64,000 bases of DNA from Halobaculum magnesiiphilum. Its GTDB lineage: Archaea; Halobacteriota; Halobacteria; Halobacteriales; Haloferacaceae. Location: contig NZ_CP081958.1 of assembly GCF_019823105.1 (NCBI RefSeq), forward strand, positions 1,488,001-1,552,000. Direction: 5' to 3'. The stretch's first letter is position 1. Every line of letters begins with the position of its first letter. Position numbers and translations under genes: made by a program. The notes under the pieces are model-generated. The model was not told where the DNA came from. It saw only the letters and a list, made by a program, of their open reading frames with translations, and ran no database searches. This document shows, piece by piece, positions 5,124 through 58,141 of this stretch.

Positions 5124-5162
5124 ATCCGAACTCGTGGCGTCGCGGAGAAGTGCGTGTCGAAA

Positions 5163-5358
5163 GCGAGGCGTGAGGGAGTGAGCGAAGCGAACGACCGAAC
5201 GCCTCGACGACCGGCGGCGAGCTTGTGGGCGAGCCGCCCAGAAGAATCGCGAGGCGTGAGGGAGTGAGCGAAGCGAACGACCGAGCGCCTCGGCAATCGG
5301 CGGCGAGCTTGTGGGCGAGCCGCCCAGAAGAATAGCGAGGCGTGAGGGAGGGAAGCGA
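5163..5358. repeat. 86-bp tandem repeat with GAGCGAAGCGA cores
   Basis: Units start at 5163, 5249 and 5335 (period 86; two full copies, a third broken after about 24 bases). Each unit folds twice. One hairpin has arms CGAGGCG/CGCCTCG around a loop containing the core GAGCGAAGCGA (5180-5190, 5266-5276). The other has arms GGCGGC/GCCGCC around a 14-nt loop starting GAGC and ending GCGA. The repeat occupies most of the 347-base gap between pdaD and PAN. No tRNA, integrase or CRISPR-like spacer is present. Bases 5359-5470 show nothing recognisable. Confidence 0.9.
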
Positions 5359-5470
5359 GACTGACCGACGGGCGGCCTCGGAAATGCGAAGGGCGAGCAG
5401 AGCGGCGGGTATTGGGTGAGGGTGCCGTGCTCGCAAAACCGCCAGACGTGACCGCGAATCGGAGCCCGAC

Positions 5471-49700: not shown

Positions 49701-49772
49701 AGCCTAGGGCGGGATTTGAACCCGCGCTCTCGTCCTTACCAAGGACGCGCTTTACCGCTAAGCTACCCAGGC
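49701..49772 (-). tRNA. tRNA-Thr (anticodon GGU)
   Basis: A complete 72-base cloverleaf on the minus strand. The acceptor stem is GCCTGGG/CCTAGGC with one G-U pair. The D stem is GCTT/AAGC. The anticodon stem CGTCC/GGACG closes the loop TTGGTAA, giving anticodon GGT. The T arm is GCGGG-TTCAAAT-CCCGC. The discriminator is T and CCA is not encoded. No intron is present. Confidence 0.95.
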
Positions 49773-53000: not shown

Positions 53001-53072
53001 GCGCCGTTGGTGAGCGATTCCGGAGGAATCGCGAGCCTCGGGGCGCGAGTGAGTGAAACGAACGAGCGCGCC
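53001..53072. repeat. tRNA-Gly 5'-end copy and palindromes upstream of the tRNA
   Basis: At 53001-53011 the sequence GCGCCGTTGGT repeats the first 11 bases of tRNA-Gly, 67 bases ahead of it. It is followed by a triloop palindrome GCGATTCC/GGAATCGC with loop GGA (53014-53032) and by arms GGCGCG/CGCGCC around a gagtgagtgaaacgaacg-like loop (53042-53072). The last arm is shared with the tRNA acceptor stem. Confidence 0.75.
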
Positions 53073-53138
53073 GTTGGTCCAGTGGTAGGACATTAGCTTC
53101 CCAAGCTAATAGCCCGGGTTCAATTCCCGGACGGCGCA
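53068..53138 (+). tRNA. tRNA-Gly (anticodon CCC)
   Basis: A complete 71-base cloverleaf. The acceptor stem GCGCCGT/ACGGCGC is fully paired. The D stem is GTCC/GGAC. The anticodon stem TTAGC/GCTAA closes the loop TTCCCAA, giving anticodon CCC. The T arm is CCGGG-TTCAATT-CCCGG. The discriminator is A and CCA is not encoded. No intron. Both sides carry partial copies of the gene ends, described separately. Confidence 0.95.
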
Positions 53139-53243
53139 TGTCTCGAACGCCAGTGAGAGACATCGCCGACGGGAATTGAAGTAGATCGGACGCGCGCAGC
53201 GGCGCGAGCACGTCCGAGCGTGGTTCAATTCCTGGACGGCGCA
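53139..53243. repeat. tRNA-Gly trailer element with inverted and direct tRNA copies
   Basis: In order: hairpin TGTCTC/GAGACA around GAACGCCAGTGA (53139-53162); an antisense T-arm copy GGAATTGAA (53172-53180); a stem CGGACG/CGTCCG (53187-53216); and a 23-base near-copy of the tRNA 3' end (53221-53243, ttcaattcctggacggcgca). The antisense and direct copies pair with each other. The same order occurs behind tRNA-Lys at 57987-58097. Confidence 0.85.
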
Positions 53244-54826: not shown

Positions 54827-54986
54827 TGGTTCGCTTCGCTACCGCTCGGCAACCCACGCCGAGACACTTCTCGCTGCGCTCGAACCGACTCGTCTACTAT
54901 CAGTCGCTACGCTCCTGATACCACCTGAAGACTGCACTCGCTTCGCTCGGTTGTCTTCCGTAGTTTGCCTCGCTACCGCTCGGCAA
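54827..54986. repeat. Copy of the rdgB 3' end plus core-type hairpins
   Basis: The rdgB stop region (cgctaccgctcggcaa, 54971-54986) recurs with few changes at 54837-54852, 134 bases further downstream of the gene. Between them lie hairpins with inverse core sequences: TATCAG/CTGATA around TCGCTACGCTC (54898-54920), GAAGAC/GTCTTC around TCGCTTCGCTC (54927-54958) and the core TCGCTGCGCTC at 54871-54881. This fills the 230-base gap beyond rdgB. Confidence 0.8.
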
Positions 54987-57878: not shown

Positions 57879-57986
57879 GGGCTGGTAGCTCAGTTAGGGA
57901 GAGCGTCCGGCTTTTAACCCGTTCGGACGGCGCGTGCGTGCGGGGAGGTCACCGGACGGTCGGGGGTTCGAATCCCTCCCAGCCCG
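57879..57986 (+). tRNA. tRNA-Lys (anticodon UUU) with a 34-base intron
   Basis: Exons 57879-57916 and 57951-57986 give a 74-base tRNA. The acceptor stem is GGGCTGG/CCAGCCC. The anticodon stem TCCGG/CCGGA closes the loop CTTTTAA, giving UUU. The T arm is GGGGG-TTCGAAT-CCCTC and the discriminator is G. The intron (57917-57950) lies between positions 37 and 38. A bulge-helix-bulge forms: central helix CTTT/GAGG, bulges TAA and TCA, and intron stem CCCG/CGGG. A tRNA splicing endonuclease should remove it. Confidence 0.94.
57917..57950 (+). other. Canonical-position archaeal tRNA intron (BHB type)
   Basis: 34 bases, starting acccgttcgg and ending ggggaggtc, inserted after A37. The cleavage sites fall after the second base of each 3-base bulge (TA|A and TC|A). 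The two flanking helices, CTTT/GAGG and CCCG/CGGG, are continuous, as the archaeal splicing endonuclease requires. Confidence 0.88.
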
Positions 57987-58141
57987 CTATTCCTGCGAGC
58001 GTCAGCGAGCAGTGAATAGCGCCCGCTGGAGGGATTCGAAGTAGACGGCGGCGAGCGAAGCGAGCCGACGGCGTGGTTCGAATCCCTCCCAGCCCGTTTC
58101 TGTGTGCAGCACCGCGACGAGCGAAGCGAGGAGCCGCGGTG
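57987..58141. repeat. tRNA-Lys trailer elements with inverted and direct tRNA copies
   Basis: First a hairpin with arms CGCTATTC/GAATAGCG around a loop holding GAGCGTCAGCGA (57985-58021, sharing the last tRNA bases). Then the antisense T arm GGAGGGATTCGAA (58028-58040), a core GAGCGAAGCGA (58053-58063) and a direct copy of the last 22 bases of the tRNA (58076-58097). The antisense and direct copies pair over 13 bases without mismatch. A third hairpin CACCGCG/CGCGGTG (58110-58141) again encloses GAGCGAAGCGA. Confidence 0.9.

Follow-up and report, generated by a model that had tools for sequence, protein, structure and literature searches.

Behind many tRNA genes of haloarchaea lie short DNA hairpins, one arm of which is a letter-perfect copy of the last 22 bases of that particular tRNA. 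These units come and go quickly and keep tracking their own tRNA, which points to an apparently undescribed recombining element anchored on tRNA 3' ends. We analysed a 64,000-nt stretch of the 3.73-Mb genome of Halobaculum magnesiiphilum (hereafter the window; contig NZ_CP081958.1, positions 1,488,001 to 1,552,000; genome G000, contig C1), in which the unit behind tRNA-Lys proved to be one case of a genome-wide and lineage-wide pattern. Our preferred reading, to which we assign a probability of about 0.5, is that of non-coding hairpin cassettes that turn over by template switching or unequal exchange involving the tRNA's own 3' end.

Architecture of the tRNA trailer units

The first-pass annotation had described, behind tRNA-Lys, an inverted T-arm copy, a hairpin core, a direct copy of the last 22 tRNA bases and a further hairpin with the same core. 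This observation is confirmed in every particular. Two units are found in the window, all features lying on the plus strand:

57879..57986 (+), tRNA-Lys(UUU), host gene of the unit
57917..57950 (+), 34-nt tRNA intron after position 37
57965..57986 (+), tRNA positions 52-73, the block that is copied
57987..58019 (+), hairpin 1 of the unit (CTATTCCTGC..GCAGTGAATAG)
58025..58040 (+), inverted T-arm copy, 5' arm of hairpin 2 (13 nt perfect at 58028-58040, GGAGGGATTCGAA)
58041..58076 (+), core of hairpin 2, GTAGAC..GGCGTGG subfamily
58053..58063 (+), apex GAGCGAAGCGA, a GNA triloop flanked by tandem G-A
58075..58096 (+), direct copy of tRNA positions 52-73 (GGTTCGAATCCCTCCCAGCCCG), 3' arm of hairpin 2
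58097..58141 (+), hairpin following the copy, with the same apex at 58119-58129
53068..53138 (+), tRNA-Gly(CCC), second host tRNA
53139..53162 (+), hairpin 1 of the tRNA-Gly unit
53171..53180 (+), inverted T-arm of the tRNA-Gly unit
53181..53223 (+), core of the tRNA-Gly unit (GTAGAT..GCGTGG)
53224..53243 (+), direct copy of tRNA-Gly positions 54-73 (19/20)

The tRNA-Lys gene is a hit to the Rfam tRNA family RF00005 with 56.8 bits, but is missed by ARAGORN with default settings. Its intron occupies the canonical 37/38 site in five genomes of the genus (G000, G002, G005, G006 and G007) but not in three others (G003, G004 and G008), and is absent from the orthologues at loci L035, L038 and L048 of the same genus. 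The direct copy matches 57965-57986 at 22 of 22 positions and the inverted T-arm at 13 of 13, with an interval of 88 nt between the copies. By contrast, tRNA-Thr(GGT) at 49701-49772 has no such unit.

The segment 58020-58096 folds better than all 200 shuffles as sense-strand DNA (z -4.9), compared to a z of -2.3 for the antisense strand, and better than 199 of 200 shuffles as RNA (z -4.2). A cmscan search of the trailer against Rfam up to E=10 returned no family for it, including no hit to the RtT RNA family. The motif GAGCGNAGCGA occurs nine times in the window against 0.8 expected. In addition to the tRNA units, tandem intergenic hairpins (GCGAGGCGTGAGGGAGTGAGCGAAGCGAACGACCGA.CGCCTCG) with the same apex but without a tRNA lie at 5150-5360, and three GAGCGNAGCGA apexes in a row lie on the minus strand at 54860-54970, away from tRNAs.

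To test whether the copies arise by chance, we took the 300 nt downstream of all 50 tRNA hits of the genome. Twenty of them hold a copy (at least 11/12) of the last 12 nt of their own tRNA, whereas trailers swapped between tRNAs gave a mean of 0.69 and a maximum of 5 in 2000 permutations. Copies matching at 16/20 or better were found 18 times downstream and never upstream. None of the genes in a cluster of unusual, plasmid- or virus-like tRNA genes (L224, G000:C1:721172-724911), similar to a cluster on contig C2 of G007, has a trailer unit.

Pooling 226 tRNA loci, we obtained 121 clean cases, in which the identity to the own tRNA is 0.95-1.00 at positions 53-73 and 0.87 at position 52, but falls to 0.31 at 51 and 0.54 at 74. 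As these cases were picked by similarity over positions 54-73, only the edges are informative, and the edges are sharp. The copy starts a median of 100 nt after the tRNA, and the unit length is uniform (median 100 nt, IQR 90-115). The copy ends at the mature tRNA 3' end, as a retro-copy of mature tRNA 3' fragments would, but CCA follows it in only 2 of 121 cases, which contradicts this reading. The inverted arm follows positions 54-63 and decays towards 66-67; its T-stem part matches the own tRNA better than swapped ones (3.88 of 6 against 3.26, sd 0.08).

The interpretation offered in the first-pass annotation, a small element without cargo that formed by copying its neighbour and is not an attachment-site pair, is partly supported. 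The arms are indeed copies of the neighbouring tRNA far beyond chance, in this genome and across Halobacteria, and the unit carries no cargo. However, the suggestion that arms around this core generally match the nearest gene end is not supported for every GAGCGNAGCGA hairpin. The motif is also a common apex of other intergenic hairpins, among which a long direct copy was found in 3 of 61 cases, all of them copies of the hairpin repeats themselves. Some of these non-tRNA apex hairpins in G000 are surrounded by a dispersed repeat, GTGGGACTGAAAGGGGC...GGGGGCTTTCGCGG (loci L230, L232, L235, L237, L238, L240 and L243), the first half of which occurs in nine fetched loci and not in the window. Their orientation relative to protein genes could not be resolved, because GC-rich DNA gives long ORFs in several frames. 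The exclusion of an attachment-site pair was also too strong. No cargo-bearing element is involved, but the copy runs exactly from the T-loop to the discriminator base and, in our reading, is exchanged with the tRNA's own end, so that it would behave like an att identity block; a recombinase using the T-loop as core site is not excluded.

Hairpin structure and strand preference

Because many loci were fetched with a motif-containing pattern, orientation and apex counts are given from unselected sets, and phylogenetic non-independence inflates the p-values. In a set not selected by the motif, the variable pair of the apex is G-C in 62, A-T in 32, G-T in 6 and A-C in 4 cases (p 2e-16), with a free middle base in a GNA loop. 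In alignments of units from different tRNAs, 6 of 13 and 8 of 14 consensus pairs of hairpin 2 show two or more Watson-Crick types, although some T-stem variation is inherited from the tRNA copy itself. The apex motifs lie on the tRNA-sense strand 35:5 in this genome and 38:4 in relatives, with one upstream. Moreover, single mismatches are G-A 29, C-T 0, G-T 9 and A-C 9, indicating that the sense strand forms the hairpin. The sequence d(GCGNAGC) is the extra-stable DNA mini-hairpin with a GNA loop; our literature search only confirmed that d(GCGAAGC) is used as an extraordinarily stable DNA hairpin.

These features bear on the main rival explanation, a functional RNA. In this hypothesis, the trailer would be transcribed with the tRNA, the hairpins would act in termination, trailer stability or 3' processing, and the inverted arm and the copy would be kept because their pairing stops the inverted arm from invading the tRNA's own T-arm. 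The restriction of the units to the downstream side of tRNAs, their sense orientation, the covarying stems, the G-A but no C-T mismatches and the RNA fold are all consistent with it. Nevertheless, G.T mismatches do not exceed A.C (9:9, and 6:4 at the apex), as RNA selection should produce. In addition, positions 67-73 of the copy pair poorly with the inverted arm but are copied perfectly, units are lost cleanly between sister species, and 30 of the 50 tRNAs lack them. We consider an RNA role possible but rather unlikely.

Distribution and turnover of the units

The signature "inverted T-arm, 25-55 nt, T-arm" is present in 49 of 53 genomes of the order (Halobacteria) and in 1 of 242 other genomes of the phylum, with zero reversed-pattern controls. 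In a scan of 85,000 species genomes with the apex included, nearly all of the hits returned are Halobacteria and most lie behind tRNAs (Leu, Val, Arg, Lys, Glu, Gln, Pro, Ser and Met). A few bacterial loci have the same design, namely tRNA-Lys of Oscillospiraceae (L122 and L205) and tRNA-Ser of Paceibacterota (L185), each with an inverted T-arm and hairpin; in L122 and L205 the copy includes CCA and a terminator-like hairpin follows. A Lloydbacteria tRNA-Lys (L159) has tandem copies of the tRNA 3' end with a small palindrome but not the inverted T-arm. The spacer is longer in the bacterial genomes; with a longer spacer allowed, 1 of 192 genomes of the Paceibacterota phylum was hit, and the design is rare there.

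Eight or more core subfamilies occur, the larger ones each shared by many tRNA types and several genera. The subfamily of the tRNA-Lys unit is also found behind tRNA-Arg, tRNA-Glu and tRNA-Met in other genomes, and behind a different tRNA in G005 (L255). Orthologous trailers of three congeners (G000, G002 and G007) differ in unit number and content. At tRNA 366569, a 79-nt unit present in G007 and G002 is cleanly missing in G000, with the junction at tRNA nt 73/74. At 437998, and probably at 839062, G000 has hairpin 1 of unit 1 joined to the core of unit 2 at the inverted T-arm. In addition, a junction lies inside hairpin 1 at 180981, whereas at 456414 hairpin 1 alone is replaced while core and copy stay.

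In arrays, the copy nearest the tRNA is closer to it in sequence than the last one (19:3, p 0.0009). Where a species' tRNA differs from the commonest variant, the copies carry its private base 121 times and the common base 7 times, a count mildly biased because copies had to match at 16/20. In about 91% of cases the sequence after the copy is unrelated to that after the tRNA, whereas about 9% (11/126, against 1.3% swapped) share the following hairpin and are whole-unit duplicates; whole tandem duplication was thus rejected as the sole origin.

Models of origin and comparison with related systems

Altogether, a unit consists of hairpin 1 followed by hairpin 2, the 3' arm of which is a verbatim copy of tRNA positions 52/53-73, the 5' arm the inverted T-arm, and the apex a GNA-loop hairpin formed on the tRNA-sense strand. 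Units lie in arrays of one to several and are duplicated, lost and reshuffled at the T-arm repeats, in our reading with the tRNA's own 3' end taking part. As any such exchange must leave the tRNA with a working 3' end, purifying selection on the tRNA would act on every copy that passes through it, and only over the part that must work in a tRNA; this would give the block edge at nt 73 and the tracking of private bases, while everything around the block drifts. In this view, cores spread between tRNA genes as pieces flanked by the T-loop consensus (GGTTCRAATCC, with its near-palindrome TTCRAA), the one homology shared by most tRNA genes. Palindromes between direct repeats are classical substrates for slippage, so no special enzyme is needed for loss or reshuffling.

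The architecture, its boundaries, the covariation, the tracking of the own tRNA, the gain and loss of whole units and the sharing of cores are demonstrated by our comparisons. By contrast, it is only inferred that the machinery is replication slippage or template switching helped by the hairpins rather than a dedicated enzyme, as are the first birth of a unit and the way in which cores move between tRNA genes. No trans-acting factor or intermediate was seen, and slippage explains loss and reshuffling better than the birth of a first unit on a bare tRNA. Moreover, the sense-strand bias and the G-A mismatches without C-T (29:0) show selection or formation on one strand, which a pure DNA-exchange view does not require, and exchange between different tRNAs through about 11 nt of homology is an assumption.

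Alternatively, an integron- or att-like system might operate, in which a hypothetical tyrosine recombinase cuts at the T-loop (near G53/T54), hairpin 2 is a folded recombination site, and units are tiny cargo-less cassettes inserted next to the tRNA. The block from the T-loop to exactly nt 73, the inverted and direct half-sites around a bulged hairpin and the freshest copy being proximal to the tRNA are consistent with this model, and tRNA 3' ends are preferred archaeal integrase targets (PMC8371274). A T-loop recombinase would explain the 5' edge at 52/53 and the polarity as well as exchange does. However, none of the units seen carries a gene, and a search for viral attP sites found no IMG/VR contig that carries the signature. 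Known halovirus att blocks are 13-14 bp (PMC7911831; PMC8371274), and pleolipovirus attP lies inside a coding sequence (PMC7911831). Cores shared between different tRNAs with locally matching arms also do not follow from simple cassette insertion. We consider this model unlikely.

A third alternative, that each copy is an attR left by an integrated element after deletion of its cargo, is very improbable. Transfer RNA 3' ends are integration sites, and in G005 (L246, G005:C1:366001-386000) the tRNA-Lys trailer is replaced by unrelated, probably mobile-element DNA starting at the tRNA end. Nevertheless, the uniform unit length, covarying hairpins and shared cores are not the debris of random deletions. 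Searches for a distant second copy behind tRNAs lacking a trailer, over 60 kb for G005 tRNA-Lys, 40 kb for tRNAs 1685843 and 2055102 and 20 kb for tRNAs 144831 and 1090672 of G000, found none.

The nearest precedent is the rtT repeats of E. coli tyrT, tandem repeats behind a tRNA gene that each contain the last ~19 nt of that tRNA. The present units likewise contain the 3' end of the adjacent tRNA in tandem, but rtT is a single locus of about 178-bp units that are not known to contain an inverted T-arm hairpin, whereas here up to 40% of a genome's tRNAs are involved over a whole archaeal class. Compared to tRNA att sites and arrays of integrative elements (reviewed in PMC8371274), the units share an identity block ending at the tRNA 3' end and a direct repeat that rebuilds the tRNA, but have an interval of about 90 nt made of hairpins without genes, an inverted half-site, shared cores, and no integrase or virus attached. 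Integron attC sites resemble them in the imperfect bulged hairpin with inverted and direct half-sites, the arrays and the newest unit nearest the anchor; however, a use of the covarying, bulged hairpin as a recombination site would rest on this analogy alone, the anchor here is a tRNA, and no integrase or cassette gene was seen in the units. REP/BIME and other stem-loop repeat families (e.g. PMC2267715) are also short, dispersed intergenic hairpins in subfamilies, whereas the present units have arms that take on the sequence of the adjacent tRNA. REP/RAYT elements are dispersed, in orientations independent of genes, and come with a RAYT transposase; the present units lie only behind tRNAs and are sense-biased. 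The PATEs of Haloquadratum (PMC3119063) are palindrome-bearing, cargo-poor haloarchaeal elements too, but are related to IS605-type ends, and we found no report of tRNA-end copies in them.

We found no prior description of this class in the open-access literature, which does not cover most subscription journals. We place the units among tRNA-end-containing hairpin repeats, in an apparently undescribed form, with a real chance that they are a new kind of mobile element. In that bolder and less likely reading, cargo-less hairpin cassettes flanked by T-loop half-sites would hop between tRNA genes of an entire archaeal class, take on arms matching each new host tRNA and repeatedly exchange with the tRNA's own 3' end. 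They would be moved by a yet unidentified recombinase or by hairpin-guided template switching, with independent parallels in Firmicutes and Patescibacteria.

The 3' ends of tRNAs are favoured docking sites for mobile DNA, yet here they carry a pervasive non-coding array of their own that tracks the resident tRNA letter for letter. The array offers a clean natural system for hairpin-mediated template switching, and warns annotators that attR-like tRNA fragments in haloarchaea need not mark a provirus. If the exchange model holds, the 3' ends of many haloarchaeal tRNA genes are repeatedly rewritten from a neighbouring copy, which makes concerted evolution between a gene and its flank directly testable.
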